From Mesorhizobium zhangyense (GTDB lineage Bacteria; Pseudomonadota; Alphaproteobacteria; Rhizobiales; Rhizobiaceae), in assembly GCF_011045115.1 (NCBI RefSeq), contig NZ_JAAKZG010000003.1:372001-436000 (forward strand): a DNA stretch of 64,000 nt, written 5' to 3'. Positions 16,772-44,628 of this stretch are shown one piece after another. The stretch's first letter is position 1. Every line of letters begins with the position of its first letter. The notes under the pieces were generated by a model that saw only the letters and a program-made list of their open reading frames with translations, did not search any database and was not told the origin of the DNA. Both the position numbers and the translations under genes were made by a program.

Positions 16772-16774
16772 CCT

Positions 16775-21970: not shown

Positions 21971-21980
21971 GGACTCTGAG

Positions 21981-23447: not shown

Positions 23448-23449
23448 CG

Positions 23450-25421: not shown

Positions 25422-25594
25422 CCACACACGTCGCGACGGGCGGTTTACCGCCCCTGCCAGCGCTGATCGGGACATCTGCCCCTGATAAGGCCTGATTTCC
25501 TTGCCTGGGCGGGACGGTCGCCTCATGTCCATCGGCACGACTGGTCTCATCCTTGTGTCGACGGAATGGCAACATGCCGTCCGAAGGAGGAACC

Positions 25595-26644
25595 ATGACA
25601 CAACTCAACGAAACCACCCTCAATGAACTCGTGGGCCGCGTCCTTGGCGACCTTGGCGGCGCGGTCAGCGTGCCGCTGGTGAGAATCGGAGACGCGCTCG
25701 ACCTGTACAAGACCCTCAAGGAGATCGGTCCGGCCAATGCTGACGAGCTTGCAGATGCCGCGGGATGTGCGGCCCGCTACGTGCGCGAGTGGCTGGCAGC
25801 GCAGGCGGCCTCGGGCTATGTGCATTACGAGAACGGACGGTTCTCGCTGACGCCCGAGCAGTCGTTCGTGTTTGCAGAGCCCGACAGCCCGGTCAATCTT
25901 ATCGGCGCCTTCGATACCGCTGCTGCGATGGTCGAGAACCAGCGGAAGGTGCAGGCGGCCTTCAAGACCGGCCGCGGTATTGCCTGGGGTGATCAGGCCG
26001 GCTGCATGTTCTGCGCCGTGGCGCGGCTGTTCCGGCCCGGCTACGTGAATGCCCTGGTGCAGGAATGGCTGCCGGCGCTCGATGGAGTGATCGACAAGTT
26101 GAAGGCCGGTGCCACGGTGGCCGACGTAGGGTGTGGCCACGGACTGTCGACGGTCCTGATGGCGCAGGCGTTCCCAAATTCCCGGTTTACCGGCTACGAC
26201 TTCCATCCGGCGTCTATTGCCGCCGCGACCGCGCACGCCCGAGCGCACGGCATGACGAACCTGCACTTCGAGGTTGGCCGGGCGCAGGACTTCGCAGGGC
26301 GTGACTTCGATCTGATCACCTGCTTCGACTGCCTGCACGACATGGGCGATCCCAAGACCGCGGCAGCGCACATCAGAAAGGCGTTGAAACAGGGCGGCAC
26401 GTGGATGGTGGTCGAGCCCATGGCCGGCGATACACTGGAAGACAACATCAATCCGGTTGGAAGGCTCTATTACTCGGCATCCACGATGATCTGTGTTCCC
26501 ACCTCGCTGGCACAGGAGACGGGGCTCGCGCTTGGCGCGCAAGCGGGCGAAAAACGGCTGGCCGAGGTGATCCGTTCCGGTGGCTTCACGCATGTCCGGC
26601 GGGCGGCCCAGACCCCGCTCAACATGGTACTGGAAGCGACCTGA
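25595..26644 (+). CDS. Winged-helix plus class I SAM-dependent methyltransferase
   Basis: 349 residues from the ATG after AAGGAGGAACC. Residues ~1-90 form a winged-helix-like domain (VPLVRIGDALDLYKTL, GCAARYVREWLAAQAASGYV), as in small-molecule O-methyltransferases and Rv2258c-like proteins. The SAM domain has VADVGCGHGLSTVLMAQAFP, the Asp in FTGYDFHPASI, and FDLITCFDCLHDMGDP. It methylates an unknown substrate; the winged helix is normally a dimerisation and substrate-lid element. It is unlinked to an operon, with 173 bases upstream to the LuxR-fusion gene. Confidence 0.87.
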   Translation: MTQLNETTLNELVGRVLGDLGGAVSVPLVRIGDALDLYKTLKEIGPANADELADAAGCAARYVREWLAAQAASGYVHYENGRFSLTPEQSFVFAEPDSPVNLIGAFDTAAAMVENQRKVQAAFKTGRGIAWGDQAGCMFCAVARLFRPGYVNALVQEWLPALDGVIDKLKAGATVADVGCGHGLSTVLMAQAFPNSRFTGYDFHPASIAAATAHARAHGMTNLHFEVGRAQDFAGRDFDLITCFDCLHDMGDPKTAAAHIRKALKQGGTWMVVEPMAGDTLEDNINPVGRLYYSASTMICVPTSLAQETGLALGAQAGEKRLAEVIRSGGFTHVRRAAQTPLNMVLEAT

Positions 26645-29066: not shown

Positions 29067-29843
29067 TTAAGCCGACGGGGCTGCAATCTGGCCGTAAAGC
29101 AGGCCGCCGGCATCCCTCGCCGCATGCTGAAGCCGCGCAAGCGCCAACTGCGTGATTTCGTCGGTCATGCGCGACGCCGGGCCGAAAACCGACAGCCCTG
29201 CGATCATGCGGCCACCCCGCGCCAGAATAGGCACTGCGACGGCGCGGATACCATCTTCGCGCTCACTGTCATTAAAGGCATGGCCAAGTTCGCGGACTTC
29301 CGCGATCTGGCGCTCCAGCGTGGCACGCTCGACAACGGTATTGCGCGTGAAACGGAGACGTTCCACCGTATCAAGATAATGCGCACGCTGGCGCTCGGAC
29401 ATGAATGCGAGCCAGGTCTTGCCATGGGCAGTGCAATAGGCTTCGAGCCTGCTGCCTACGCGAATATCCACCGACAATTGCCGGCGAGAGACCGCGCGGG
29501 CGATACATACGACCATGTCCGACTGGAAGACCGTCGCCATCGCGGCTTCCTGGAGGTCGGCGGTGATGGCATTGAGAAGCGGCTGCAAGGTCTGCCCAAG
29601 CAGGTCGCCGCCGGTGACCCGATCGCCAAGATCGACGAACACGTAGCTCAGCCGGTAACGGCCCTTCGCCACGGCAACCAGTGCGCCGACATGTTCCAGC
29701 GTCCGCAGGAAGCGATGCGCGGTGACGAAGTTCAGATCGAGCTCGGTCGCCACATCCGTCGTGGTGACCTCATTCCGGTCTTCGTCGAAGAGTTTCAGGA
29801 TGTCGAAGGCCTTGACCACGGAGCCGTTGATCTGGGTGACCAT
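29067..29843 (-). CDS. IclR-family transcriptional regulator (cluster 2)
   Basis: 258 residues from the ATG at 29843; upstream in-frame starts to 29897 are possible. The N-terminal winged helix (about 1-75) reads INGSVVKAFDILKLFDED, TTDVATELDLNFVTAHRFLR. The C-terminal effector domain has RLSYVFVDLGDR, RVGSRLEAYCTAHGKTWLAF and VPILARGGRMIAGLSVFGP. IclR proteins regulate aromatic and acid catabolism, as activator or repressor. It diverges from the TPP enzyme gene; two perfect palindromes lie between them, so it probably controls cluster 2 and itself. Confidence 0.92.
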   Translation of the reverse strand: MVTQINGSVVKAFDILKLFDEDRNEVTTTDVATELDLNFVTAHRFLRTLEHVGALVAVAKGRYRLSYVFVDLGDRVTGGDLLGQTLQPLLNAITADLQEAAMATVFQSDMVVCIARAVSRRQLSVDIRVGSRLEAYCTAHGKTWLAFMSERQRAHYLDTVERLRFTRNTVVERATLERQIAEVRELGHAFNDSEREDGIRAVAVPILARGGRMIAGLSVFGPASRMTDEITQLALARLQHAARDAGGLLYGQIAAPSA

Positions 29844-29901
29844 AGCTTGAGCCTCGCATAGGTGGAAAAGCTTGACCGTCTGCCCGGACATTGCCAAACT
29901 T

Positions 29902-29972: not shown

Positions 29973-31685
29973 ATGAACAAGCGCGAAACAGTCAAGACCG
30001 GAACGATGACAGCCGGCGGAGCCTTGCTGGCGCGGCTGAAAGCGGTCGGCGTGGACTACATCTTCGCCAATTCGGGCACGGATTTTCCGCCGATTATCGA
30101 GGGTCTGGCCGAGGCGGAGGCACGCGGCATTCCGCTACCGCAGGCGCTGGTCATGCCGCATGAATCTGCGGCGATGGGAATGGCGCATGGCTATTATTTG
30201 GCGACGGGCCGGCCGCAGGCTGTGATGGCGCATACAAATGTCGGTCTGGCGAATTGCGCCATCGGCGCGATCAACGCCGCCACCGAGCATATTCCAATGC
30301 TGCTGTTTTCCGGCCGCACGCCGACCACTGAGAAGGGTCATCTTGGATCCCGGACCGTGCCGATCGGCTGGGGCCAAGAAATGCGGGACCAGGCGGCACT
30401 GGTCCGCGAGGCCTGCAAATGGGACTATGAGCTGCGCTTTCCCGAACAGGTGCCCGAGATTGTCGACCGCGCCTATGCCATCGCCAGTTCGGAGCCGCGC
30501 GGGCCGGTCTATGTCAGCCTGCCGCGCGAGGTGCTGTGCGAGACCTGCCCGACGGAAGGGCTGGACAAACCGGCAACGATGGCGCCGGCGCGAGCAGGCG
30601 CCCGCCCCGCCGACATTGAGGCAGCGGCAGCCATTCTGGCTGCGGCGCGACACCCGGTCATCTTCGCGCAGCGCGGCGCTGGCGATGACGCCGGCTTCGA
30701 GGCGCTAAGCGCGCTGGCGCAAGAATGGGCTATTCCCGTTTGCCAATACTGGGCGGTGCAGCTTGCCATACCGACCGACCACCCAATGACTGCCGGTCCC
30801 GACCCCAAGCCGCTTCTCGAACAGGCCGACGCGATCCTGGTTATCGATGCGCTGGCGCCATGGTCGCCTGACATCCATCGACCAAGGGACGATTGCCGTA
30901 TCATCCATCTCGGCCAGGACCCGCTCTACAGCCGCTTTCCCGTCCGTAGCTTTCGCTCCGACATCAGCCTTGCCTGTGACGTTAGCGAAGGCATCCAGGC
31001 CCTGCGCGTGGCGATGGAGCCGTTGCGCGCCGAGGCAATCGCCGCCCGCCGCGATCTGATTGCAGGCGCAAATGCCCACACACGTGCCGCTGCAATAGCG
31101 ACGGCCGAGCGCGGCAACGGCGCGCCGATGAGCAAGGATTGGGTCAGCCTCTGCCTATCGCGCGCAATCGAAGGACGAGAGGCGACAGTGCTTTCCGAAC
31201 TCGGCTGCCCGATGGGGCCAATGACGCTCAAGCATCGCCGCGCCTGGTATCAGGAGCCGCATTCGGGCGGGCTCGGCTGGTCGTTTCCCGCTGGGCTCGG
31301 CATGCAGCTTGCCGACCGCGAGCGCCTTGTCATCGCGACGATGGGTGATGGCTCCTACATCTTTTCCAACCCGGTCGCCTGCCACCAGATCGCCGAGGCG
31401 CTGGAACTGCCGCTGCTGGTGATCATCGTCAACAACGCCGAATGGGGAGCGGTGCGCCAGTCGGTGCTCGGCATCTATCCCGACGGCCATGCCGCGCGCA
31501 CCAACCGCATGCCGTTGACCGGGCTTTCGCCCATACCGGATTTCACCAAGGTCGCCGCCGCAAGCCGCGCCTGGGCGCGAACGGTGACCGACGGCGCTGT
31601 GCTGGAGGAAGCGCTGTCGGATGCGATCCGTCACATCGAAACGCATAGGACGCTCGCCTTGCTGGACGTCCATGTGAGGCCGTGA
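29973..31685 (+). CDS. Thiamine-pyrophosphate-dependent enzyme (decarboxylase/lyase-like)
   Basis: 570 residues. Pyrimidine-binding N-terminal domain with the cofactor-activating Glu64 in MPHESAAMGMAHGY; central domain; C-terminal PP-binding domain with the GDGS...NN motif (MGDGSYIFSNPVACHQIAEA, IIVNNAEWG) near residue 457. It belongs to the acetolactate synthase/benzoylformate decarboxylase superfamily; no acetolactate-specific partner is present. In this context a decarboxylase or C-C lyase making an aldehyde is plausible, with the aldehyde dehydrogenase at 33.0 kb next. The start lacks a clear ribosome-binding site; 30006 is an alternative. Confidence 0.88.
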   Translation: MNKRETVKTGTMTAGGALLARLKAVGVDYIFANSGTDFPPIIEGLAEAEARGIPLPQALVMPHESAAMGMAHGYYLATGRPQAVMAHTNVGLANCAIGAINAATEHIPMLLFSGRTPTTEKGHLGSRTVPIGWGQEMRDQAALVREACKWDYELRFPEQVPEIVDRAYAIASSEPRGPVYVSLPREVLCETCPTEGLDKPATMAPARAGARPADIEAAAAILAAARHPVIFAQRGAGDDAGFEALSALAQEWAIPVCQYWAVQLAIPTDHPMTAGPDPKPLLEQADAILVIDALAPWSPDIHRPRDDCRIIHLGQDPLYSRFPVRSFRSDISLACDVSEGIQALRVAMEPLRAEAIAARRDLIAGANAHTRAAAIATAERGNGAPMSKDWVSLCLSRAIEGREATVLSELGCPMGPMTLKHRRAWYQEPHSGGLGWSFPAGLGMQLADRERLVIATMGDGSYIFSNPVACHQIAEALELPLLVIIVNNAEWGAVRQSVLGIYPDGHAARTNRMPLTGLSPIPDFTKVAAASRAWARTVTDGAVLEEALSDAIRHIETHRTLALLDVHVRP

Positions 31686-31717
31686 ACGCTTTTGCATGAA
31701 CCTGAGGAGGAACCCAC

Positions 31718-32414
31718 ATGCCCGAACTCGCCCGCTCCGAATTCTGGAAAGACCTGAAGCCAATCACCAAGGTGTTCCAGCCGGACGCGCTGCCGGAGGT
31801 CTACACCGAAAACGCAGCGACGGACGACGAGCGCTACTATGTACCCTTCACCGACCGTGTCCTCCCGGCCGCTGTGGATCTCGCCGTCACAGAACAAATG
31901 GTGCGACATACTCATGGCCAAGGGCGCGGGGTTGGTGAACCGGCATTATCACCCGCACGAGGTTTTCGCCTACACGATCTCCGGCAAATGGGGCTATCTC
32001 GAGCACGACTGGACAGCGACCGCCGGCGATTTCGTCTATGAGACCCCGGGCGAGGGTCACACGCTGGTCGCTTATGAGCACAAAGACCCGATGAAGGTGT
32101 TCTTCCAAGTCAAGGGGCCGCTGATCTGGCTCAAGGAGGACGGCGAACCGGATGGCTATTTCGACGTGCACAATTACATCGCGCTCTGCCGCGACCACTA
32201 CGAGAAGGTTGGTTTGGGCCGCGACTACATCGACAAGCTGTTCCGGTGGAGCCGGCTAAATATTCATGCCGCCGTCGACCATCAGCGTCGTGCCGGTGGT
32301 GAAGCTGCTTTGGTCGGACGCCAGATAGAGCACCGAGCGGGCAATCTCATCGGCCGTGCCATGACGGCCGAGCGGGATCATCCCGTTGAAGAAGGCCGCA
32401 CCATCCACGCCTAG
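31718..32414 (+). pseudogene. Frameshifted cupin, 2,4'-dihydroxyacetophenone dioxygenase-like
   Basis: The gene starts well (GAGGAGGAACCCAC then ATG) and encodes MPELARSEFWKDLKPITKVF through YYVPFTD. Near 31856 homology jumps by one base to the next frame, which gives SSRPLWISPSQNKWCDIL, NRHYHPHEVFAYTISGKWGY and the cupin HTLV segment with its metal-binding His residues. One extra base (for example a C in the ACCGACCGTG run) explains it. The second frame also lacks a stop at the expected end (about 32247) and runs 158 bases over the convergent SDR gene to 32414. Either a real mutation or a sequencing error. Relatives cleave aryl hydroxyketones to an aromatic acid and formate. Confidence 0.75.
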
Positions 32415-33017
32415 GGCCTGACCAAGCCCGCCTTCCACCGCATGCTGAAAACCGTTGTCAATCGGCCCGGGATGGATGGTGTTGACCCGGATGCGGCGCG
32501 GCGCAAGTTCCTTGGCGAGGCATCGCATCAGGCCGATCTGGGCGTGCTTGGCGGTGATATAGGCATAGACGCCGGGATCGCCGCGCATGCCGGCAACGCT
32601 CGAGGTGATGATGATGCTGCCACCATCGCGCATTTTCGGCACGGCATATTTTGCCGCCAGGAACGCGCCCCGAACATGCACCGCCTGGACGGCATCGAAA
32701 ACATCCTCGGGATAGGTTTCGATCGGGGCGACGACGCCGAAGTTGCCTGCATTTGAGAACAGCACGTCGATCGGGCCGAAGCGCTTCACTGCGTTTCCGA
32801 CATAGCGGCGGGTGCCTGCCGCATTGGATACGTCGGCGAGAACCGTCTCGACGCGCGCTGCAGGGAGACCGGTGGCTGCCTTTTCCAGCGCGGCCTGTTC
32901 CCGGTCGACGAGCACGACGTTGGCGCCCTCCCTAAGAAACAGGCGCGCTGCCGCTAGCCCCAGGCTGCCTGCACCTCCGGTAATGATGCAGTTCTTGCCT
33001 CCAAGCAGCGCGCCCAT
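32256..33017 (-). CDS. Short-chain dehydrogenase/reductase (cluster 2)
   Basis: 253 residues from the ATG at 33017; a TTG at 33035 is possible because the GGGGGGAGG stretch lies immediately before the ATG. Classical SDR: TGGAGSLGLAAARLF, acidic NAD-selecting residue in VVLVDREQ, FSNAGNFG, catalytic Ser in ITSSVAG and YITAK. Ends with MVDGGMNI. Likely oxidises a secondary alcohol or reduces a ketone in cluster 2. It is downstream of the aldehyde dehydrogenase on the minus strand and convergent with the cupin. Confidence 0.9.
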   Translation of the reverse strand: MGALLGGKNCIITGGAGSLGLAAARLFLREGANVVLVDREQAALEKAATGLPAARVETVLADVSNAAGTRRYVGNAVKRFGPIDVLFSNAGNFGVVAPIETYPEDVFDAVQAVHVRGAFLAAKYAVPKMRDGGSIIITSSVAGMRGDPGVYAYITAKHAQIGLMRCLAKELAPRRIRVNTIHPGPIDNGFQHAVEGGLGQALGVDGAAFFNGMIPLGRHGTADEIARSVLYLASDQSSFTTGTTLMVDGGMNI

Positions 33018-33031
33018 TCCTCCCCCCGGAT

Positions 33032-34483
33032 TCAAATCGGATAATGCAGTGGGCCGTCCTGGATCGTGATCCAGCGCAGCTCGGTGAATTCGGCGATGCC
33101 CGCCTTGCCGCCGAAGCGGCCATAGCCGGAATCCTTGACGCCGCCGAAGGGCATCTGCGCCTCGTCGTGAACGGTCGGGCCGTTGATATGGCAGATACCG
33201 GATTCAATGCGTCGCGCGACCGCCATGGCACGGTTGATGTCGCGTCCGAAGACCGCCGCTGACAGGCCATATTCAGTGTCGTTGGCGACACGCACCGCCT
33301 CATCGACGCTGCCGACACGCACGACGGTGACGACCGGGCCGAAGCTTTCCTCGCCATAGATGCGCATCGAGGGCGTTACCCGGTCGAGCAGCGTTGCCTG
33401 CACGATCGTGCGATCGATGCCGCCGCCGGCCGACAGAACCGCGCCTTTGGAAACGGCGTCGCGTATCAATTGGTCGATCCGGTTTGCCGCCCCGGCATCG
33501 ACGACCGAGCCAAGCGGCGTGTTGCCCTTGCGCGGATCGCCGGCCTCGAGCGAACGCGCCTTGGCGGCAAGTGCCGTCACGAACCGGTCGGCGACTTTCT
33601 CGTCGACGACGATGCGCTCGGTCGACATGCAGATCTGGCCCTGGTTCATATAGGCGCCGAAGGCTGCAGCTGCGACCGCTTCATCGATGTCGGCATCGTC
33701 CAGCACGACGAAAGGCGCCTTGCCGCCAAGTTCGAGCAGAACCGGCTTGAGATAGCGTCCCGCTGTCTCGGCGATGAGGCGGCCGACGCGCGTCGAGCCG
33801 GTAAAATTGACGCGGCGTACGGCTGGATGCGCAATCAGCGCCTCGACAATTTCAGAGGCATCATCGGGCGCATTGGAGATGGCGTTCAACACACCTTCCG
33901 GCAGACCGGCCTCATGCAGCGCATCGACGATCAGGCGATGGGTGCGCGGGCAGATTTCCGAGGTCTTCATAACCACCGTGTTGCCGCAGGCAAGGGGGGC
34001 GGCCAGCGAGCGCACGCCAAGGATGACCGGTGCGTTCCACGGTGCGATCGAAAGCACGACGCCTGCGGCCTGGCGGATGCCCATGGCAAGGCTGCCCGGA
34101 CGGTTCGACGGGATGATCTCGCCGGCAATCTGCGTGGTCAGCGATGCGGCCTCGCGCAGCATGTCGGCGGCGAGCCCGACATTGAACATCGCCCAGCCGG
34201 CGGTAGCACCAGTCTCGGCGGCCATCGCGGCGACGAACTCCGGCGCCTTGGCCTGAAGCTTGTCGGCTGCCGCCAGCAGAATCTTGCGCCGCGCTCCCGG
34301 CCCCGTTGCCGACCATGCGGGAAAGGCCTTGGCCGCGCGGTTGGCGGCGCGGCGCGCATCCTCGACGGTCGCAGCGGCAACCCGCGTGGCGACTTCGCCC
34401 GAAATCGGATTGGCGCGCTCGAAGGTGCGGCCGTCAGAGGCGTCCTGGTCTTCGTTTCCGATCGACAGTCCCAGCACTTCCAT
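33032..34483 (-). CDS. Aldehyde dehydrogenase (cluster 2)
   Basis: 483 residues. Normal ALDH motifs: APWNAPVILGVRSLA, FTGSTRVGRLIAE (unlike the cluster 1 pair, which have FTGGG), catalytic Glu in LELGGKAPFVV and Cys in NQGQICMSTER. It resembles vanillin/benzaldehyde-type dehydrogenases in general layout, but the substrate cannot be fixed. It could oxidise the aldehyde released by the TPP enzyme. It lies nine bases after the LivF-type gene, in the same operon as the second HAAT transporter. Confidence 0.92.
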   Translation of the reverse strand: MEVLGLSIGNEDQDASDGRTFERANPISGEVATRVAAATVEDARRAANRAAKAFPAWSATGPGARRKILLAAADKLQAKAPEFVAAMAAETGATAGWAMFNVGLAADMLREAASLTTQIAGEIIPSNRPGSLAMGIRQAAGVVLSIAPWNAPVILGVRSLAAPLACGNTVVMKTSEICPRTHRLIVDALHEAGLPEGVLNAISNAPDDASEIVEALIAHPAVRRVNFTGSTRVGRLIAETAGRYLKPVLLELGGKAPFVVLDDADIDEAVAAAAFGAYMNQGQICMSTERIVVDEKVADRFVTALAAKARSLEAGDPRKGNTPLGSVVDAGAANRIDQLIRDAVSKGAVLSAGGGIDRTIVQATLLDRVTPSMRIYGEESFGPVVTVVRVGSVDEAVRVANDTEYGLSAAVFGRDINRAMAVARRIESGICHINGPTVHDEAQMPFGGVKDSGYGRFGGKAGIAEFTELRWITIQDGPLHYPI

Positions 34484-34492
34484 TTCTTGTCC

Positions 34493-35218
34493 TCACTTAC
34501 TCGTTTCGGTGTTCATTCCGAGAAAGGCACGCTGCACGGCGGGATCGCGCAGCAGCGCCTCGGCAGTGTCCTCGCCAACGATGCGGCCTGCCTCCATCAG
34601 GTAGCCGCGATCGGCGATCGACAGGCTGACCTTGACGTTCTGCTCCACGATGATCAGCCCGACACCGGTTTCCCTGACGCGCCGCAACGTTGCAAAGAGT
34701 TCCGTCACGACGACAGGCGCGAGGCCGAGGCTCGGTTCGTCCAGCATCAGGAAATCCGGGGCCGACATCAGCGCGCGGCCTATCGCCACCATCTGCTGCT
34801 CGCCACCGGACATGGTGTTGGCATATTGCGCGCGGCGCTGGGCGAGCTTCGGGAAAAGCTCGTAGACGAAGGCGCGGCGCGAGGATTCACCGTTGCGGGC
34901 ACGCTTGGCATAAGCGCCGAGCAGCAGGTTTTCCTCGACCGTCAGATCGCCGAAGATGCCCCTGCCCTCCGGCACCAGCGCGACGCCCATTTCCACGATC
35001 TCATGCGCCGGACGCCCTGTCAGCACCCGACCTTCCAGCGCGATCGAGGAACCGGCGACCGGCTTGACCATGCCGGCAATCGACTTCAGCAGCGAGGATT
35101 TTCCGGCGCCATTGGCCCCGAGAATGACGACCGTCTCGCCCTTGGCTGCGCGCAGGTTCACCTGGTCCAGCGCCAGATGCTGGCCGTAGCGTAGGGAAAG
35201 ATCGCCGATCTCAAGCAT
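34493..35218 (-). CDS. HAAT ABC transporter ATPase, LivF type (cluster 2)
   Basis: 241 residues from the ATG at 35218, where LivF proteins start (MLEIGDLSLRYGQ) and which overlaps the LivG stop by 8 bases. Walker A GANGAGKSSLLK, signature TMSGGEQQMVAIGRALM, Walker B FLMLDEPSLGLAP, all intact, in contrast to the Arg-substituted P-loop of the cluster 1 protein. ATPase half of the second HAAT importer. Confidence 0.92.
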   Translation of the reverse strand: MLEIGDLSLRYGQHLALDQVNLRAAKGETVVILGANGAGKSSLLKSIAGMVKPVAGSSIALEGRVLTGRPAHEIVEMGVALVPEGRGIFGDLTVEENLLLGAYAKRARNGESSRRAFVYELFPKLAQRRAQYANTMSGGEQQMVAIGRALMSAPDFLMLDEPSLGLAPVVVTELFATLRRVRETGVGLIIVEQNVKVSLSIADRGYLMEAGRIVGEDTAEALLRDPAVQRAFLGMNTETSK

Positions 35219-35939
35219 GTTCGGCTCCAAGATAGGCGCGCACCACTTCCGCGTCGGCCAGCACATCGGCGGTACGGCCGTCGGCGATGGTTTTTCCCGC
35301 ATTCATGACGACGCAGCGTCCGCACAGCGCGCGCACGGCGTCCATGACGTGCTCGACCAGAAGCACGGTGACGCCGCGCTCGCCCAGCGATGCGACCAGA
35401 TCGATGCCGATGCGAAGCTCGGTCGGGTTCAAGCCCGCCAGCCACTCGTCAAGCAGCAGCACAGCCGGATCGGCGGCGAGCGCACGCGCCAGTTCCATGC
35501 GCTTCTGGTCGATATAGGTCAGGCGCTCGGCGGTTTCGTCGGCGCGATCGGCAAGCCCGACCTGTTCGAGACGAGCCAGCGCCTCGTCCCGGGCCACCGT
35601 GCCCCATAGCCGGCGACGCCCAAAAGCCAAAGCGGCGACGACGTTTTCCAGAACACTCAGCGACGGCAGGATGCGGACGAGCTGGAAGGTTCGCGCAACG
35701 CCTTTCAAGGCGATGCGATTGGGCGAAAGACCGGTCAGCGTCTCGCCATTCAGCATGACCGTGCCGCGCGTTGGCGGCAGCAGGCCGGAGACCATGTTTA
35801 GCACCGTGGTCTTGCCCGAACCGTTGGGGCCGAGAAGGCCGACGACCTCGCCCTTGTCCATCGAGAAGGTGACGCCATCAACCGCCGTCAGGCCGCCGAA
35901 CTGCTTGGTAAGGCCGGAAATCTCTAGAAGCGTCGTCAT
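35211..35939 (-). CDS. HAAT ABC transporter ATPase, LivG type (cluster 2)
   Basis: 242 residues. Walker A GPNGSGKTTVLN is intact. The signature region is LTYIDQKRMELARAL, a LivG-type degenerate signature. Walker B is VLLLDEWLAGLNP, with Trp where Pro is usual after the catalytic Glu. Switch His in LVEHVMDAVR. Paired with the LivF-type protein. It overlaps the permease gene by 4 bases. Confidence 0.92.
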   Translation of the reverse strand: MTTLLEISGLTKQFGGLTAVDGVTFSMDKGEVVGLLGPNGSGKTTVLNMVSGLLPPTRGTVMLNGETLTGLSPNRIALKGVARTFQLVRILPSLSVLENVVAALAFGRRRLWGTVARDEALARLEQVGLADRADETAERLTYIDQKRMELARALAADPAVLLLDEWLAGLNPTELRIGIDLVASLGERGVTVLLVEHVMDAVRALCGRCVVMNAGKTIADGRTADVLADAEVVRAYLGAEHA

Positions 35940-36859
35940 CGCGCACGCCCCCGCTTCCAGAGCTTTTCTGTGAACGCCAGAACGCCTTTGGGCAACACGA
36001 ATACAATGGCGATGAACAAAAGACCGAGAATGATCGAATAGTGATTAGGGAAATTGGCCGACAGCCATTCGAACAGTAGGAACAGCGGCACCGCACCCAG
36101 CAGCGGGCCCCACAGCCGGTTCGCACCACCGAGCAGCGCCATGATCAGCGTCAGGAACGAGATGGTCGGGTTGAAGACGATGGCCGGCTCAACATAGGTC
36201 CAGCGCGGCGCCTGGATGGCACCGACGAGTGTTATGATGACAGCGCTGAGCGCAAACAGCGCCAGCTTCACCCGGGCGATGTCGATGCCGCAATGCGCCG
36301 CAACCACCTCATCGTCGCCGATGACCTTCAGCGCCAGACCGATGCGGCTGCGGCCGATCCACCAGGCGAGCAGAAGGGTGACGGCTGCGAGCGCCAGAAG
36401 CTGCCAGTAGATATCTTCCGGCCCGAGATCGAGAAAGATGTAGCGGCCGAGCGTGCCGGTGACATTGACCTCGTACCAGGTGACGAGCTGGCGGATCAGT
36501 TCGGCCAGGCCGAAGGTGAAGATCACGAAATAGACACCCGCCAACCGAAGCGTCGACAGTCCGACCACCAGTGCGACGACCAGGCCGATCGCGGCTGCCG
36601 CTAGCAGAACCAGCGGATAGGGCAAGCTTTCGCTCAGCACCGCGACCGTATAGGCGCCGATGCCGAAGAAGGCGACGGTTGCCAGCGAAACATAGCGCGT
36701 CGGACCCGAAAACAGCGCCCATGCAGTCGCCAGCGTGACATAGCCGGCGATGCCGATCATCAGGCCGATGCCATAGGGGCCGAGATAGGACGGAGCGAAG
36801 GCCAGCGCGACAAGCACGGCGGCGGCAATCCCCCAGGCGGCAATTGCTTTTGCATTCAT
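35936..36859 (-). CDS. HAAT ABC transporter permease, LivM type (cluster 2)
   Basis: 307 residues from the ATG at 36859, which overlaps the LivH stop by 4 bases; a longer frame to 36895 would intrude into LivH. About eight to nine membrane segments, with LRLAGVYFVIFTFGLAELIR and GGANRLWGPLLGAVPLFLL. It lacks the long C-terminal extension of the cluster 1 LivM. Channel subunit of the second HAAT importer. Confidence 0.91.
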   Translation of the reverse strand: MNAKAIAAWGIAAAVLVALAFAPSYLGPYGIGLMIGIAGYVTLATAWALFSGPTRYVSLATVAFFGIGAYTVAVLSESLPYPLVLLAAAAIGLVVALVVGLSTLRLAGVYFVIFTFGLAELIRQLVTWYEVNVTGTLGRYIFLDLGPEDIYWQLLALAAVTLLLAWWIGRSRIGLALKVIGDDEVVAAHCGIDIARVKLALFALSAVIITLVGAIQAPRWTYVEPAIVFNPTISFLTLIMALLGGANRLWGPLLGAVPLFLLFEWLSANFPNHYSIILGLLFIAIVFVLPKGVLAFTEKLWKRGRAR

Positions 36860-37728
36860 CGCGCGCTCCTGCCGAACAGGCCGGAGGGACGCCACAGCAG
36901 GATGACGAGGAAGATGAGATAGGTGGCTGCCAGCGTCAGGCCGGGGTCGAGATAGGTGGCGACGAAGGTCTCGACCAGCCCGAGGATCAGCCCGGCGCTG
37001 AGCGCGCCGAGCACATTGCCGACACCGCCCATGATGACGACGATGAGCGCCTTCATGGTGAAGACGACGCCGGATGCAGCGGTGAAGGTCTGGTACATCG
37101 AAATTACCACGCCGCCGCAGGCCGCAAGCGCGCCGCCAAGCGCAAAGGCAAAGCGCGCCTGACGGTCGACATCTATCCCGACAAGAGCGGCGGAAGACGG
37201 CGACACGGCAACGGCGCGCAGCGCCGTGCCCCAGCGCGTGCGGGTCAAGGCGAGATAGAGCAGGCCTCCGATGACCACGGCCAGCACGAAGGCGAGCAGC
37301 CGGTTGGCGGCGATGTTGGTGCCGAGAATGGTCACCGGCACGTTGAGATAGGAATAGCTGGTGTAGTTACCGCCGAAGATGACGAAGAGCACGCCCTGTA
37401 TGACGAACAGGAGGCCGAAGGTGGCAAGGATGGAATCGGTTTCCAGGCTGACCCTGTCCTTCGCCCGCGCCACCAGCGGATGCATCATCAAGGCATAGAC
37501 GGCATAGCCGAGGATGAACCCGGCAGGCGCCGCGATCGCCAGGCCAATGAGCGGGTTGATGCCCGCGCCGCTATAAAGCGCGAAGGCGAGGAAGGCGGCG
37601 GTGATGATCATGTCGCCATAGGCGAGGTTCATGATGCGCGCGATGCCATATTGCAGCGTCAGTCCCATGGCGATGAGCGCATATGTGCCGCCGAGCACGA
37701 GCCCGGCCAGAATGGCCGTGACGATCAT
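36856..37728 (-). CDS. HAAT ABC transporter permease, LivH type (cluster 2)
   Basis: 290 residues, hydrophobic throughout. ALIAMGLTLQYGIARIMNLA YG-type start and GVVFTMKALIVVIMGGVGNV near the C-terminus are LivH hallmarks. It follows the binding-protein gene by 19 bases and overlaps the LivM gene, so the order on the minus strand is binding protein, H, M, G, F, aldehyde dehydrogenase, SDR. Confidence 0.92.
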   Translation of the reverse strand: MIVTAILAGLVLGGTYALIAMGLTLQYGIARIMNLAYGDMIITAAFLAFALYSGAGINPLIGLAIAAPAGFILGYAVYALMMHPLVARAKDRVSLETDSILATFGLLFVIQGVLFVIFGGNYTSYSYLNVPVTILGTNIAANRLLAFVLAVVIGGLLYLALTRTRWGTALRAVAVSPSSAALVGIDVDRQARFAFALGGALAACGGVVISMYQTFTAASGVVFTMKALIVVIMGGVGNVLGALSAGLILGLVETFVATYLDPGLTLAATYLIFLVILLWRPSGLFGRSAR

Positions 37729-37747
37729 TCGCCGCCTTCCCTAATTG

Positions 37748-38977
37748 TTACTGCGCTTTCCACGGCTGCCGGGGCAACACGACCTTGCTGGCGCCTGGCC
37801 GATTCGCAGGCGCCACGCCCACGAACTGTCCGTTCTGCCATTGGCCGGTCCACCACAGCTGGCGCAACTGGTTGTCCTCCAGCTTTGTCTCGCCGAGCAC
37901 GGTGTTGAACGTGCCGGTCGAAAGCTCCTCGGATACGGCTTCGCGGTCGAGACCCTTGCGCTTGATCGCCTCCTGCAGCATCTGCAGGCTGGCATAGGTG
38001 ATGACGCTGCCCCAATAGTCAGGGCCCTGCCCCGTCACTTCCTCGTGCCGCTTGCGATAGGCGGCGTTTTCCTGATTGTTCGGATCGATACCGCCCAGGC
38101 TCATGATGCCGGTGGCGTTTTCGCCATTGTTCTTGAAGTAGACGGGAAAACCGGTGCCGACGCCGAGATAGAGGACCTTCGGATTGAAGGCCGTAACCTG
38201 CGACTGCTGTGTCAGCGCGAAGGTGTCGGGCGGATAGGAGAAGGCAACGAAGGTGTCTGCGCCGCTCGCCTTGGCTTCGTTGATGAGCGGGGTGAAATCC
38301 GAGGTGCCGATCGGATAGGTCTTGTCATAGGCGACTTCCAGCCCCGCTTCCTTGAAAGCCGGACGCGCGGCGGTGACAAGATCGATGCCGAAGCCGTCGG
38401 CGATCGAGATCATCGCCACTTTGTTGTTGATCGTGCCGGCCTTGTTGGCTTCAACCAACACGGCGGCCAGTGCCCTGGCATAGTCATGCCCACCGCCGAG
38501 CAGCCAGAAACTCTTCTTCCAGCGCTTGACGAATTCCGGTGCCTTGTCGGTCACGGCGGAGACGGCAAGCTGAGGATAACCGAAACGGTCGAACAACGGT
38601 GCGACGGCGAGGTTGAAGCCGGTGCCCCAGGGCACGAGCATGAAATCGACCTTGTCCTGCGTCGCAAGGCGCTCGACGGCGCGCACGACCTCTTCGGCCG
38701 ACGAGCGATCGTCATACTCGACGACCTCGATCGGCAGCTTGCTGCCATCGGGCAGTTCGAGGCCGCCGGCGTCGTTCACGTCCTTTACCCAAAGCACGTA
38801 GTTCGGAATGGTGGTGATGCCGGCGCCGCCGGCATTGGGGCCGGTCTTGGAAACGGCGTAGCCGATGCGGACGGACTTTCGATCCTCGGCCGATGCGACC
38901 GTGAGACCGCAGGCAGCCAGCGTCGCGAGACCAAGCCCGAGCGTTTGCAGGACATGCCTGCGCTTGAAAAGCGTCAT
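37748..38977 (-). CDS. HAAT ABC transporter substrate-binding protein (cluster 2)
   Basis: 409 residues from the ATG at 38977, chosen for its GGGAGGAGG site and the secretion signal beginning MTLFKRRHVLQTLGLGLATL; the frame remains open to 39136 without purpose. Mature part begins near SAEDRKSVRIGYAVSKTGPN, a PBP type 1 fold. Segments such as EVVEYDDRSSAEEVVRAVER and KVLYLGVGTGFPVYF are family-like. It delivers the cluster 2 substrate to the permease. The group often binds aromatic or amide compounds, but no ligand can be named. Confidence 0.9.
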   Translation of the reverse strand: MTLFKRRHVLQTLGLGLATLAACGLTVASAEDRKSVRIGYAVSKTGPNAGGAGITTIPNYVLWVKDVNDAGGLELPDGSKLPIEVVEYDDRSSAEEVVRAVERLATQDKVDFMLVPWGTGFNLAVAPLFDRFGYPQLAVSAVTDKAPEFVKRWKKSFWLLGGGHDYARALAAVLVEANKAGTINNKVAMISIADGFGIDLVTAARPAFKEAGLEVAYDKTYPIGTSDFTPLINEAKASGADTFVAFSYPPDTFALTQQSQVTAFNPKVLYLGVGTGFPVYFKNNGENATGIMSLGGIDPNNQENAAYRKRHEEVTGQGPDYWGSVITYASLQMLQEAIKRKGLDREAVSEELSTGTFNTVLGETKLEDNQLRQLWWTGQWQNGQFVGVAPANRPGASKVVLPRQPWKAQ

Positions 38978-39158
38978 GAACTTTCCTCCTCCCAAATAGC
39001 GCCCGCGACGGGCGCCTACTCCGGCCGGTGCCAAGCGTGTTCCGTTCTCCTCCGAACACGCTTCTCCGACCGAATTCGATGAGGTTACGACCGGGTCGAA
39101 ACGATAGAAATAGACTTTTTCAAGAGAAAATTGCACTTTACACGGCGAGGAGTATTGG

Positions 39159-40064
39159 ATGAAAGACCAACCGCAGGATACGGGTCGGATTCAGCCAGTT
39201 TCGGCATCGATCCCGATCATGCCGGACACCGAAGCACGCATGTTCAAGGCTGCCCTGACCGCGTCCGAATGGATCCTGCACGGCCGTCGCCATCGGGCCT
39301 TCGTGCTGCTCTCCGGCAGCGGCCGCATAGTGCTGGAAAGAACCCACGCGCCGCTGGTGGGGCCGTGCATCGTCTGGTTGCCGGTGGGCAACTTGGCGAC
39401 GCTGAAGCTCGACGCGGGGTCCGAGGGTGCTTCGCTCACCGTTTCGGAACTCTCGCTCGGCCGCGCCATTCCGGCCGGCCCAGTCGGGGCCCAGATCCGC
39501 GAAGCGATGCTCGACCCCGCGCTCGGCACACGGGTCGCGCTTGAGACCGCGCGCAAACTTGGCGGCATGATCGAGGCCATCGAAATCGAGCTTCGGGAAG
39601 ATGCACCGGGCGCGCATGACGCAGTGCGCCAGCATATCGCGCTTCTGCTCATCGCGCTGTGGCGCCTGTCGAGCCCAAGCGCTGCAAAGCCGCAGCCCTC
39701 CCCCCGCGCCACCGTTCACGGTTTTCTGCATCTCGTGGAAATCCATGTCCGCGACCACTGGACCGTGGCCGATTATGCACGTCTGCTCGGCGTCACCGCC
39801 GACCGGCTGAATTCTGCCATCCGCCGCGCGACGGGACGCTCGCCGCTGGCGCTGATCCATGCGCGGCTGATCACCGAGGCGGAAATCCTGCTCGACAGTT
39901 CGACGCTGCAGGTCTCGGAAGTGGCCGAGGCGCTCGGCTTTCGTGATCCCGCCTATTTCAACCGCTTCTTCAAGCGTCTCACCGGCATCGCGCCGGGGCG
40001 GCGGCGCTTCCAGCCATTCCAGAAAATACCACGAGCTGACCAATCCTTCGCAGCATGGCCATGA
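39159..40064 (+). CDS. AraC-family transcriptional regulator (cluster 2)
   Basis: 301 residues from the ATG after GAGGAG. Residues ~1-190 form a cupin-like sensor half (RRHRAFVLLSGSGRIVLE, LVGPCIVWLPVGN). Residues ~200-300 are the double helix-turn-helix: TVADYARLLGVTADRLNSAI and VSEVAEALGFRDPAYFNRFF followed by KRLTGIAPGRRR. These regulators often activate aromatic catabolism. It diverges from the binding-protein gene with 181 bases between, so it probably activates the importer operon in response to the substrate. Confidence 0.92.
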   Translation: MKDQPQDTGRIQPVSASIPIMPDTEARMFKAALTASEWILHGRRHRAFVLLSGSGRIVLERTHAPLVGPCIVWLPVGNLATLKLDAGSEGASLTVSELSLGRAIPAGPVGAQIREAMLDPALGTRVALETARKLGGMIEAIEIELREDAPGAHDAVRQHIALLLIALWRLSSPSAAKPQPSPRATVHGFLHLVEIHVRDHWTVADYARLLGVTADRLNSAIRRATGRSPLALIHARLITEAEILLDSSTLQVSEVAEALGFRDPAYFNRFFKRLTGIAPGRRRFQPFQKIPRADQSFAAWP

Positions 40065-40181: not shown

Positions 40182-40955
40182 TCACCCTGAAACGATCACA
40201 TCGATACCGGCAGCGGAAAGAGCAGCCTGTATCGTCTCGCCTGGAGGCACATCAGTCACGAGAGTGTCTATGCGGGCAAGCGGCACGACCTCGAAGACTG
40301 CGCGGCGATCGAACTTGCTGTGGTCGGCAAGCACCGTCACACGGTCGGCCCGCTCGATCATGGCTTTTGCCACTTCGGCCTCCTGAAGGTCGAAATCCAT
40401 GACGCAGTTTGCGTCGATCGCGCCGATCGTGATGACTGCATGGCGGACACGGAACTTGCCGATCTGCTCAAGGGCGAGAGGGCCGAGACTTTCGCCGGCA
40501 TCCGAACCATAGGCGCCGCCGATCAGAAAGACCTTATGGCTGGGATTGCTTGCCACCGTCGCCGCGATCCGCGGTGAATTTGTGATGATGACGAGCGCCT
40601 CGAGCCCCACCAGCGCCTCGGCCATCGCAACCGTGGTGCTGCCCGTGTCGATAAAGAGCGAGTCATCCGCCTGGAAGAGACGGGCTGCTGCCTGAGCGAT
40701 CTTTCTCTTGGCTTCGGCATTCTGCGCCAGCCGCAGCGCGTATGGCCCCTCCATTTCCATGGCAGATGTGGATATGGTCATCACGCGCGCGCCGCCGTGA
40801 AATTTTCGGACCTTACCCCGTGCGTCGAGACGGGTAAGGTCGCGGCGGATCGTCTCCCGCGAAACCGCCAGCGCCTCCGCCAGTTCGTCCACCGTCATTT
40901 CACTTGCACGGCCAAGCATCGCAACGATTTGATCCTGGCGTTCGGATGGCTGCAT
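40182..40955 (-). CDS. DeoR-family transcriptional regulator (cluster 3)
   Basis: 257 residues from the ATG at 40955; starts at 41003 or 41051 would overlap the operator repeats. N-terminal HTH (about 5-57): QDQIVAMLGRASEMTVDELA, then LAVSRETIRRDLTRLDARGK. C-terminal DeoRC sensor (about 75-250) with FIDTGSTTVAMAEAL, the sugar-phosphate-binding type of loop, and VTVLADHSKFDRRAVFEV. DeoR proteins usually repress and respond to phosphorylated sugars or polyols, which fits the kinase in cluster 3. It diverges from the TRAP operon. Confidence 0.92.
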   Translation of the reverse strand: MQPSERQDQIVAMLGRASEMTVDELAEALAVSRETIRRDLTRLDARGKVRKFHGGARVMTISTSAMEMEGPYALRLAQNAEAKRKIAQAAARLFQADDSLFIDTGSTTVAMAEALVGLEALVIITNSPRIAATVASNPSHKVFLIGGAYGSDAGESLGPLALEQIGKFRVRHAVITIGAIDANCVMDFDLQEAEVAKAMIERADRVTVLADHSKFDRRAVFEVVPLARIDTLVTDVPPGETIQAALSAAGIDVIVSG

Positions 40956-41029
40956 TTTGGTGCCCTCTGTCAGCGCGAATCGAGGCGAAGCGCAATCTGC
41001 CATACAAACGCCGATATAGCGAAGAGACC

Positions 41030-41125
41030 GTTCGGTCAATATTTCCGACACAACGTGACTGTTCGGTCAAATTTGGAAGAAAATATCGATCGTTCGGTCA
41101 TATTTTTGAAAGTTTGGTCTTCACT
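41030..41125. repeat. Four phased repeats GTTCGGTCA, candidate DeoR operators
   Basis: GTTCGGTCAATATTT (41030), GTTCGGTCAAATTT (41061), GTTCGGTCATATTT (41092) and a weaker GTTTGGTCTTCACTT (41112). Start-to-start distances are 31, 31 and 20 bases, close to three, three and two helical turns, so all copies face the same side of the DNA. Located between the DeoR gene and the TRAP operon. Confidence 0.7.
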
Positions 41126-41216
41126 TCCCTCAAAAACCGGCTAGAGTGCTCGCAGATGCGAGAAAGAGGCAAACTCGCGCGCATCTGTCGTTGAGGGCGA
41201 TACAAGGGGAACAACA

Positions 41217-41252
41217 ATGACTGCTTTTCAGAAACGCTTCGTATTGCCGTAG
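41217..41252 (+). CDS. Possible 11-codon leader peptide
   Basis: ATG with a good AAGGGGA site at the right spacing, encoding MTAFQKRFVLP and then TAG, followed by a GC-rich region of about 240 bases before the first TRAP gene. It could be a translated leader, or the decayed start of a lost gene. Weak evidence. Confidence 0.3.
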   Translation: MTAFQKRFVLP

Positions 41253-41491
41253 CGGCGCTTAGCCGGCGGGATACTGCATCGCACCCAAGTGCGGCTGCAC
41301 GTTTGTCGGCAATCCATCGGTGAATTGAACGGACTCGGCATGGCCGGCTCCGAACGATTTTTTGCGCCCAGATCGATGGCTGGCTTCCGCCGATAGGGCC
41401 ATTGGCAAAGCCGACGGGGCAGCGTTCGCAAAGTGGGGAACGGAGTGGACATGAAACCAAAGAATATGAAACAGCCGATGGGAGAACGCCA
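41253..41491. other. Untranslated leader region of the TRAP operon
   Basis: No gene supported. A frame open through here from 41402 joins the TRAP gene but its N-terminal part does not look like protein of that family. The region may be an untranslated leader. Confidence 0.5.
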
Positions 41492-42004
41492 TTGCATCCG
41501 CTGATTGCCGGTTATGTCCGCTGGACGGATCGGATATCCGATTATGTCGGCTACCTCGCCGCGTCGCTCATCTTTTTCATGGGCGGCACGCTGATCTTCG
41601 ATGCGATCACCCGCAATCTCCTCAAGATGCCCGTTCACTGGGCGGTAGAACTCACGCAGTTCACCCTGGCTGCCTATTATTTCATGGGCGGCCCGCTCAC
41701 GCTCAAGAACAACGATCACGTCCGCATGGACCTCTGGTATTCGGGGCTCTCCGAACGCGGCAAGGCCAAGGTCGATCTCGCCACCATCGGCTGCATGATC
41801 TTCTATCTCGGCGTGTTGCTCGCGGGCTCCATCTCCAGCCTGCAATACGCGCTAACCACCAATGAACGGCGCTTCTCGATCTGGAATCCTTCGGTAATTC
41901 CCATCAAGTCGCTGATGGTGGCCTGTCTGGTCCTGATGCTGATGCAGGCGGTATCGCTCGTCTTCAAGCATATAGCCACCCTGCGCGGAGATCATCTGCG
42001 ATGA
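41492..42004 (+). CDS. TRAP transporter small permease (DctQ type)
   Basis: 170 residues from a TTG with GGGAG upstream; the frame is open further upstream but the DctQ family begins about here (LHPLIAGYVRWTDRISDYVG). Four membrane segments, with FMGGTLIFDAITRNLLKMPV and YYFMGGPLTLKNNDHVRMDL typical of DctQ. It bridges the large permease subunit in sodium-coupled TRAP uptake. The stop overlaps the large permease start by 4 bases. Confidence 0.85.
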   Translation: MHPLIAGYVRWTDRISDYVGYLAASLIFFMGGTLIFDAITRNLLKMPVHWAVELTQFTLAAYYFMGGPLTLKNNDHVRMDLWYSGLSERGKAKVDLATIGCMIFYLGVLLAGSISSLQYALTTNERRFSIWNPSVIPIKSLMVACLVLMLMQAVSLVFKHIATLRGDHLR

Positions 42005-43338
42005 GCTACGAGATGATCGCACTTCTCATGTTCGCTTCGATGGTGATCCTGCTCGTATCCGGGCAGCGTGTCTTTGCCGCCATCGGTTTCGTGGCGGCTG
42101 GCGCGGCGTTGCTGCTTTATGGTCCAGGTGCTGCCGACCTGCCGTTCAACCAGGTGTTCAAGCTGTTCAACTGGTACGCGATGCTGACGCTGCCCATGTT
42201 CATCTACATGGGCTACATCCTGTCGGAGTCCGGCATCGCCGAAGACCTCTACAAGATGCTGCACGTCTGGTTCGGGCGCTTGCGCGGCGGCTTGGCCATC
42301 GGCACGATCTTCCTGATGGTGATCATCTCGGCGATGAACGGGCTCTCGGTCGCCGGCATGGCAATCGGCGCCACGATCGCGCTGCCGGAGATGTTGCGGC
42401 GCGGCTACGACAAGGTGCTGATTTCCGGCGTCATACAGGGTGGGTCGTCCCTCGGCATCCTGATCCCGCCATCGGTCGTGATGGTGCTTTACGGCATGAT
42501 CGCCCGTCAGCCGGTGTCGAAGCTATGGTTCGCCGGGCTTATCCCGGGCCTGCTCATGGCCGGTCTTTTCGTTCTTTATGTTGTCATTCGCGCCAGGCTC
42601 AACCCGAAGCTTGCACCGACAGTCGCCGACGAAGAGCTGAACATGCCGCTTGGCGAGAAGCTCAAGCTGGCGCGGGCGGGCATCGTGCCCTTTGCCATCT
42701 TCTTCTTCATGACCGGGCTGTTCGTGTTCGGCTACACCAGCCTGGTCGAAAGCTCCGCGGTCGGCGCGTCGGCGGCCACGCTGGCGGCCATTCTCAAAGG
42801 CCGGTTCACCTGGCGGCTGGTGCGCGAGACGTCTATGAAGACCCTCGCCGTCTCCTGCATGTTCCTGTGGCTCATCCTCGCCGCCCTCGCCTTCGGCGCG
42901 GTGTTCGACGGTCTGGGCGCGGTGAAGGCGATCGAAAGCGTCTTCATTCACCAGTGGGACCTCAATCCCTGGACCATCATCATCATGATGCAGGTCAGCT
43001 TCATCATCATGGGGATGTTCCTCGACGACACAGCCATGCTGGTCATCGTGGCACCCCTCTATATCCCGCTGGTAAAGCTGCTCGACCTCGGCTTCGACAA
43101 CCAGCTGATCTGGTTCGGCGTGCTTTACACGATCACCTGCCAGATCGCCTACATCACCCCGCCCTTCGGGTACAATCTGTTCCTGATGCGCTCGCTGGCG
43201 CCGAAGGAAATCACCCTGATCGACATCTACAAGTCCATCTGGCCCTTCGCCCTGATCATGATGCTCACCATCGCACTGGTGATGATCTTCCCCGGTCTCG
43301 CGCTATGGCTTCCGGAACAAATGAGAGTGAAAGGCTGA
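42001..43338 (+). CDS. TRAP transporter large permease (DctM type)
   Basis: 445 residues with about twelve membrane segments. DctM hallmarks: AIGTIFLMVIISAMNGLSVA, VIQGGSSLGILIPPSVVMVL and FLDDTAMLVIVAPLYIPLV. It is the transmembrane secondary transporter subunit, driven by an ion gradient, fed by the periplasmic binding protein encoded 46 bases downstream. Order Q-M-P. Confidence 0.93.
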   Translation: MSYEMIALLMFASMVILLVSGQRVFAAIGFVAAGAALLLYGPGAADLPFNQVFKLFNWYAMLTLPMFIYMGYILSESGIAEDLYKMLHVWFGRLRGGLAIGTIFLMVIISAMNGLSVAGMAIGATIALPEMLRRGYDKVLISGVIQGGSSLGILIPPSVVMVLYGMIARQPVSKLWFAGLIPGLLMAGLFVLYVVIRARLNPKLAPTVADEELNMPLGEKLKLARAGIVPFAIFFFMTGLFVFGYTSLVESSAVGASAATLAAILKGRFTWRLVRETSMKTLAVSCMFLWLILAALAFGAVFDGLGAVKAIESVFIHQWDLNPWTIIIMMQVSFIIMGMFLDDTAMLVIVAPLYIPLVKLLDLGFDNQLIWFGVLYTITCQIAYITPPFGYNLFLMRSLAPKEITLIDIYKSIWPFALIMMLTIALVMIFPGLALWLPEQMRVKG

Positions 43339-43384
43339 TCGCCAGATCGGCCAGGAGTGTCCTTAAAAACCAGAGGAGAACAAA

Positions 43385-44479: not shown

Positions 44480-44628
44480 TCGTCGCATCGTAGAACCCAG
44501 AACGCTCCGCCCTCAAAGGGGCGGAGCAGGTGGTCGCGGGTGCCAGCGCATCGCCCTCCAATTTGGGCGATCTCCCCTGCTACGCGCCGTTCCGGCCTCC
44601 AGACATGACGCATGAAAGGGAGCCGCCG

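Follow-up and report, generated by a model that had tools for sequence, protein, structure and literature searches.

The window analysed here, a 64,000-nt stretch of the Mesorhizobium zhangyense genome (contig C23, positions 372001-436000, of a 6.36-Mb draft in 64 contigs), carries a cluster in which the genes for a thiamine diphosphate (ThDP)-dependent enzyme (also thiamine pyrophosphate, hence TPP enzyme), a cupin, a short-chain dehydrogenase (SDR), an aldehyde dehydrogenase (ALDH) and a Liv-type importer are framed by an IclR-family and an AraC-family regulator. On balance, this cluster probably takes up plant-derived aromatics with side chains of two carbons (aryl-C2 compounds) and feeds them into 4-hydroxybenzoate and then protocatechuate. 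Its gene content is best read as two modules that have been joined, with a regulator for each: IclR goes with the TPP enzyme and AraC with the cupin and the importer. In M. zhangyense itself the cupin frame is broken, and the cupin step has probably been lost, leaving the TPP/ALDH arm. An original prediction from the DNA letters had proposed uptake of an aromatic keto or hydroxyketone compound, its C-C cleavage by a cupin or TPP enzyme and oxidation of the resulting aldehyde. That theme agrees with the cupin, the ALDH and the neighbours of the TPP gene, but it overlooked both the broken cupin and the presence of two modules. The gene types and their co-location were borne out as well, the TPP enzyme, cupin, SDR, ALDH and importer all lying where they had been placed and the two regulators standing at opposite ends, each just beyond the interval first delimited; the exception is the cupin, which is frameshifted here and not a single open frame.

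The sequence itself shows what the genes are, how they are conserved and arranged in modules, that the cupin frame is broken and that this genome also has pobA and pca genes; the pathway is inferred, including all substrates, the direction of the SDR, the reaction of the TPP enzyme and the cargo of the importer. The first module, IclR and the TPP enzyme working together with the ALDH, would start from arylglyoxylates, for instance 4-hydroxybenzoylformate: the TPP enzyme would decarboxylate them to the benzaldehyde, and the ALDH would oxidise this to 4-hydroxybenzoate. In the second (AraC, LivFGMH and the binding protein, SDR, ALDH, cupin), the Liv importer would bring in an aryl diol or ketol and the SDR would convert it to the level of 2,4'-dihydroxyacetophenone, from which the cupin dioxygenase would produce 4-hydroxybenzoate and formate with O2. 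Degradation of 4-hydroxybenzoate would be completed by PobA and the pca gene products from elsewhere in the genome, where pobA, pcaC, pcaH, pcaG and pcaB are grouped on contig C45. Cleavage by "cupin or TPP enzyme", as first proposed, is thus better read as the work of two enzymes for two oxidation states of the side chain.

The module structure is apparent from 86 loci carrying the TPP gene (L038-L123), drawn from the best 80 of 215 candidates plus annotated records; L124 was excluded for a TPP match under the identity threshold and the short L001-L037 were left out. The identity thresholds for gene presence were set by the analyst, and the pob/pca and transporter queries come from the same locus set. 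A cupin gene lies near the TPP gene in 25 of the 86 loci, mostly together with the rest of the set (SDR and binding protein in 22 each, ALDH and LivF in 24 each, AraC in 23), which argues that the co-location is not due to chance. Among the 61 cupin-less loci, AraC is never found and the SDR only once, while ALDH is present in 18, IclR in 26, the large permease of a tripartite ATP-independent periplasmic (TRAP) importer in 19 and, counting hits to either of two queries, an alpha-hydroxy-acid oxidase in 9. AraC is therefore tied to the cupin (23/25 vs 0/61 loci, p 6e-19; this and the other p values for associations given below ignore kinship), whereas IclR is independent of it (10/25 vs 26/61, p 1.0).

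The modules are also found apart. In genome G048, the cupin, SDR, ALDH, Liv and AraC genes stand together (L152) and the TPP gene lies about 40 kb off, beside pcaB-G-H-C (L153). In G039, the cupin module is on one contig (L151) and the TPP gene on another (L154), there with a TRAP importer, pobA, pcaBGHC, pcaF and an IclR-family gene (33%). L151 and L152, which thus both display the cupin-SDR-ALDH-Liv-AraC set without the TPP gene, come from two related genomes of the same family; a further genome, G034, combines the cupin and SDR with a different Liv importer. Across 201 genomes, in sets assembled by hand at identity cut-offs of about 58% (TPP), 60% (cupin), 65% (SDR) and 76% (ALDH), the cupin and the SDR have 9 carriers each and share 6 (p 8e-8), and the TPP gene is held by 7 of the 9 cupin carriers and by 7 of the 8 ALDH carriers (p 8e-7).

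Where the TPP gene is found in other settings, its neighbours include alpha-hydroxy-acid oxidases, TRAP importers and pob or pca genes. It accompanies an ALDH, a TRAP importer and an alpha-hydroxy-acid oxidase on a Neorhizobium plasmid and, at 49% identity, in Sagittula; an ALDH and a TRAP permease in Neorhizobium EC2-8; pca genes, an ALDH and a TRAP importer on a Chelatococcus plasmid; and, in Ponticoccus, an ALDH, a tripartite importer, a protein of the mandelate racemase/muconate lactonizing family and an alpha-hydroxy-acid oxidase. Roseivivax has a contiguous block of IclR, TPP, BKACE, TRAP, pobA and pcaGHC genes, with the TPP gene on the strand opposite to the pob/pca genes, and in Sulfitobacter the full cupin cluster is followed a few kb further by pcaG, pcaH, pcaC and pobA. 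Overall, a pob or pca gene is present in the flanks (at most about 10 kb on each side) of 18 of the 80 TPP loci from genome contigs. More distant relatives of the TPP gene adjoin genes for 3-hydroxy-3-methylglutaryl-CoA (HMG-CoA) lyase, MmgE/PrpD or an AEC transporter. As a separate observation, the TPP gene has a ketopantoate-reductase-like gene (ApbA/PanE) 1 to 6 kb away on its upstream side in 9 of the 86 loci (L060, L063, L085, L090, L091, L096, L104, L106 and L120).

Judged by their sequence, intact copies of the cupin are 2,4'-dihydroxyacetophenone dioxygenase (DAD), an enzyme that converts 2,4'-dihydroxyacetophenone to 4-hydroxybenzoate and formate (PMC4219425). The L038 copy aligns over residues 5-177 with the solved DAD 4p9g (E 6e-96) and is identical at 23/23 of the positions that the structure paper singles out when it describes the active site and the substrate model (PMC4219425), including the iron-binding histidines 76, 78 and 114 and the residues of the substrate pocket. 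In addition, two plasmid relatives annotate the protein as "2,4'-dihydroxyacetophenone dioxygenase family protein". An acetylacetone dioxygenase (Dke1-like) was considered as well and dropped on the DAD match. While the intact relative shares all of these residues with the DAD of Alcaligenes sp. 4HAP (4p9g, 5bpx; PMC4219425), the gene is broken in M. zhangyense, and relatives embed it with an SDR, an ALDH and a Liv importer. Of the 34 matches listed, 25 are to a more remote DAD-like cupin that shares 40-46% identity with the intact protein; it is spread across the order and also occurs in the same-genus genome G001.

The break in the M. zhangyense cupin lies near position 31,850 (about codon 45): the N-terminal stretch, from 31718, reads in one frame and the last 133 residues read in another. 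The usual stop codon is missing, and the second frame continues to 32414, opposite the SDR gene. A single open frame spans the cupin in 26/26 other rows, corresponding to 23 distinct contigs (three seen twice), and its length is exactly 177 residues in 22 of these 23, L044 (= L009) extending to 192. As the gene is sequenced, the cupin is probably not functional in this genome, in which the intact cupin has no other match at E <= 0.001. The C-terminal frame is under strong constraint, with a ratio of non-synonymous to synonymous rates (dN/dS) of 0.065 vs L038; the ratios of the TPP (0.10), SDR (0.12) and ALDH (0.05) genes against the same locus are low too. Since the 3' part is still constrained, either the break is recent or it is an error of the draft genome. 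We give somewhat less than an even chance to a sequencing or assembly error that would leave the cluster intact in the living strain, which would be compatible with the aryl-C2 pathway and concern one gene only. The dN/dS value is that expected of an intact or very recently broken gene, an assembly in 64 contigs favours such an error, and the missing stop alone is not telling, because one of the 23 other contigs also reads past the usual end. Yet frame break and absent stop coincide, which speaks against an assembly error, and loss of the cupin does occur: it is gone from the related cluster of Rhizobium alarense (L042 = L011), where the TPP and SDR genes are about 260 bases apart and tblastn with relaxed settings found no cupin remnant.

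The TPP enzyme belongs to NCBIfam PRK08327 ("thiamine pyrophosphate-requiring protein"), which it matches at 687 bits for a cut-off of 456. This is the sole model above cut-off among the 25 best NCBIfam models shown, the next family scoring 162 bits. All three ThDP-enzyme domains (PF02776, PF00205 and PF02775) are above cut-off, and the best named match is from Aminobacter sp. HY435 (83% identity). In a HMMER alignment with the benzoylformate decarboxylase (BFD) of Pseudomonas putida, along which residue numbers were counted, the catalytic residues Glu47 and His70 of that enzyme correspond to E64 and H87. Both are invariant in 27/27 aligned sequences, i.e., that of the window and 26 picked from the 80 best loci; in the alignment of carboxyethylarginine synthase, the His position is Thr. 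With the AlphaFold model of the TPP enzyme (mean pLDDT 85.8), the first four Foldseek hits are glyoxylate carboligase, 4-hydroxybenzoylformate decarboxylases (6qsi and 7orx) coming at ranks 5 and 8, and in VIA-align benzoylformate decarboxylases lead (Z 33.7), with acetolactate synthases and others within about 1.

For the remaining genes, the ALDH is closest to aromatic aldehyde dehydrogenases of the vanillin/salicylaldehyde type, its first three matches among 261 sequences being salicylaldehyde dehydrogenase 6qhn (E 2e-191), vanillin dehydrogenase 9ihb (E 5e-187) and NahF (4jz6), all at E 1e-161 or better. These are its closest solved relatives; its substrate here is a prediction. The nearest solved relatives of the SDR reach E only about 1e-41. 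The Liv-type (HAAT) importer is complete, with two ATPases of the ATP-binding cassette (ABC) type, two permeases and a Peripla_BP_6 binding protein; naming its ligand from solved binding proteins was attempted and dropped, the matches being too weak. The cupin gene starts 32 bases past the end of the TPP gene, and the SDR and ALDH genes overlap by four bases (Table 1).

Table 1. Genes of the cluster and its two regulators, in coordinates of the window; substrates are proposals.
Feature	Coordinates	Strand	Remark
IclR-family regulator	29067..29897	-	best NCBIfam score PcaR/PcaU/PobR, under that model's cut-off
TPP (ThDP-dependent) enzyme, NCBIfam PRK08327; proposed (4-hydroxy)benzoylformate-type decarboxylase	29973..31685	+	
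Cupin, 2,4'-dihydroxyacetophenone dioxygenase (DAD) family, frame broken	31718..32246	+	
Short-chain dehydrogenase (SDR); proposed aryl-1,2-diol / alpha-hydroxyketone dehydrogenase	32256..33035	-	
Aldehyde dehydrogenase (ALDH); proposed 4-hydroxybenzaldehyde-type dehydrogenase	33032..34483	-	
LivF-type ABC ATPase	34493..35218	-	likely start ~35218; longest frame to 35302
LivG-type ABC ATPase	35211..35939	-	
LivM-type permease	35936..36895	-	
LivH-type permease	36856..37728	-	
Periplasmic substrate-binding protein, Peripla_BP_6	37748..38977	-	likely start ~38977; longest frame to 39136
AraC-family regulator	39159..40064	+	best NCBIfam score HpaA, under cut-off

Several findings weigh against the aryl-C2 pathway. 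Known benzoylformate decarboxylases share only about 22-25% identity with the TPP enzyme, which misses their model NF005485 (144.6 bits for a cut-off of 493); it is therefore not assigned to that sequence family and is proposed only to work like it. It has Thr36 at the position of BFD Ser26, and at the counterpart of BFD His281 the alignment gives Pro/Trp around 281, with a nearly invariant His at 302. The fold is not decisive, since glyoxylate carboligase tops the Foldseek list and acetolactate synthases come close in VIA-align. As to genomic context, 12 of the 18 loci with a pob or pca gene belong to Thalassospira or its close relatives, in which pobA lies 7 to 11 kb away from the start of the TPP gene, so that these cases are not independent, and several annotated records show the TPP gene without an aromatic neighbour. 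No TPP gene of the PRK08327 type was found at E <= 1e-100 in the cupin-bearing genomes G034 and G085. At the cut-off used, three cupin-bearing genomes (G125, G085 and G110) lack the SDR, G085 having a 52% match on another contig. In G056 and G067, AraC, Liv and ALDH genes have neither the TPP gene nor the cupin beside them, and the ALDH may thus have another partner. Furthermore, the binding protein has weak solved relatives only (best E 7e-10), and the 4-hydroxyphenyl substitution is read solely from the cupin and the pob/pca neighbours.

Some of these observations would suit other functions of the TPP enzyme. It might decarboxylate or ligate a non-aromatic 2-oxo acid and lie beside aromatic genes for reasons other than a shared pathway, a reading that the absence of a function label for PRK08327 in NCBIfam leaves room for, and that is favoured by the HMG-CoA lyase, MmgE/PrpD and AEC transporter genes next to distant relatives and by the first Foldseek rank of glyoxylate carboligase. 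We consider it unlikely: relatives of at least 57% identity repeatedly adjoin pobA, pca genes or an aromatic-type ALDH, and the enzyme retains the catalytic Glu (E64), which glyoxylate carboligase is not known to have. Alternatively, the TPP enzyme could be a C-C lyase of the benzaldehyde-lyase type. The SDR would then make an aryl alpha-hydroxyketone (a ketol or a benzoin), the TPP enzyme would split it to give aldehydes for the ALDH to oxidise, and the cupin would cut the same ketol oxidatively. This has the merit of accounting for SDR, TPP enzyme, ALDH and cupin together, with one ketol and two cuts; the solved proteins that the TPP enzyme matches include benzaldehyde lyases, and the TPP gene is present in 7 of the 9 SDR-bearing genomes (p 3e-6). 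It nevertheless seems quite unlikely, given that the His at BFD position 70 is retained and that elsewhere the gene stands with alpha-hydroxy-acid oxidases and with importers of the TRAP or tripartite carboxylate type, a setting that suits 2-oxo acids rather than ketols. Moreover, according to earlier work summarised in PMC7760541, the P. fluorescens 4-hydroxybenzoylformate decarboxylase is reported to be inactive on aryl C3 fragments (guaiacylglycerol derivatives). Finally, the outcome that the original prediction had named as incompatible with it, a TPP enzyme that is an acetolactate synthase or a sulfoacetaldehyde acetyltransferase and has nothing to do with the other genes, is very improbable and was rejected: the TPP enzyme shares the general ThDP-enzyme family with both, but their models score far under cut-off (acolac_lg, 141 vs 538; sulphoacet_xsc, 122 vs 676) and the cupin is linked to it in 25/86 loci.

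Within the aryl-C2 pathway, a bolder and rather doubtful version is that the cluster encodes two exchangeable side-chain routes for one aryl ketol, one through the O2-dependent dioxygenase, the other O2-independent, in which SDR and ALDH would produce the arylglyoxylate for decarboxylation by PRK08327 and a final oxidation by the ALDH. The dioxygenase would then be dispensable, which would explain its break here and its absence in Rhizobium alarense, with SDR, ALDH and TPP enzyme kept, as well as genomes with the SDR and no cupin (G022 and G065) in which a GMC alcohol oxidoreductase, an ALDH and a TPP enzyme are nearby; the TPP enzyme near the SDR of G065 is a different one, with 33% identity. 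If this version were true, PRK08327 would be a new, widespread family of arylglyoxylate decarboxylases. Independently of this, the G065 locus (L163, 3931-16610) is a second SDR-ThDP pairing: it has the same SDR (73%) and the TPP-linked type of TRAP importer beside that different ThDP enzyme, together with a ketopantoate-reductase-like gene, two ALDHs and the GMC oxidoreductase.

Both arms of the proposed pathway have counterparts in known systems. The TPP/ALDH arm would work as the 4-hydroxybenzoylformate pathway of Rhodococcus jostii RHA1 and Pseudomonas, as far as the available text of two papers describes it (PMC9811514, PMC7760541). According to the same text, the bzf-type clusters of R. 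jostii RHA1, Pseudomonas fluorescens Pf-5 and Pseudomonas LLC-1, and mdl of P. putida, likewise combine a ThDP enzyme, an aromatic ALDH and a transporter. The catalytic Glu/His positions are shared with these systems and so is, in some relatives of the cluster, an alpha-hydroxy-acid oxidase, which depends on flavin mononucleotide. In contrast, the TPP enzyme here comes from PRK08327, a dioxygenase and an SDR are added, the major facilitator superfamily transporter and porin reported for the bzf cluster are replaced by ABC or TRAP importers here and in relatives, and the close relatives found of the present TPP enzyme are mostly in Alphaproteobacteria. One of the two papers states in its available text that the 4-hydroxybenzoylformate pathway is absent from lignin-degrading bacteria other than R. 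jostii (PMC9811514); the other, in its own, places the pathway in Pseudomonas (PMC7760541).

For the dioxygenase arm, there are precedents in Alcaligenes and Burkholderia (PMC4219425), and the DAD structure paper cites the suggestion of a further role for the enzyme (PMC4219425). In the two annotated plasmid relatives, none of the neighbouring genes is labelled as a 4-hydroxyacetophenone monooxygenase. A DAD-like gene is also part of cluster G-II of Novosphingobium sp. MBES04, described in the available text as induced by lignin fragments (PMC10866074); of its four genes, the other three have products called hypothetical, and the word "thiamine" is absent from the main text (PMC10866074). The literature searched, which mostly did not extend to subscription papers, yielded no report of TPP/ALDH and dioxygenase arms combined with a Liv importer and two regulators, none linking DAD with a benzoylformate decarboxylase, and none tying a "thiamine pyrophosphate-requiring" protein to mandelate and decarboxylase; for dihydroxyacetophenone together with Rhizobium and a dioxygenase, it gave a single review, on tree phytotoxicity. 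If the aryl-C2 pathway proves true, the widely held ThDP family PRK08327 would gain a testable function and DAD a physiological setting, and many rhizobia, roseobacters and Thalassospira would have an aryl-C2 route from lignin or plant phenolics. It also deserves attention that one cluster has an apparently broken dioxygenase gene and another has none, with the remaining genes kept.

Other gene groups in the window lie on both sides of the cluster. To its left, 25553-26644 encodes a methyltransferase with an Rv2258c-like winged helix-turn-helix domain. In 6539-25421, of which some frames were scanned, are a second Liv-type importer (binding protein and permease), two aldehyde dehydrogenases, a hydrolase-LuxR fusion, an enoyl-CoA hydratase/3-hydroxyacyl-CoA dehydrogenase fusion and a class III CoA transferase. 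To its right, 40182-48646 holds a DeoR regulator, a TRAP importer (DctM, DctP and a likely DctQ at 41402-42004), a DAO-type oxidoreductase, a pyridine-nucleotide oxidoreductase and an FGGY kinase, and looks like a separate cluster of polyol or glycerol type. Its TRAP importer (41402-44479) was considered as the TPP-linked TRAP of relatives and ruled out, with identities of 28-30% for DctM and 23-26% for DctP.

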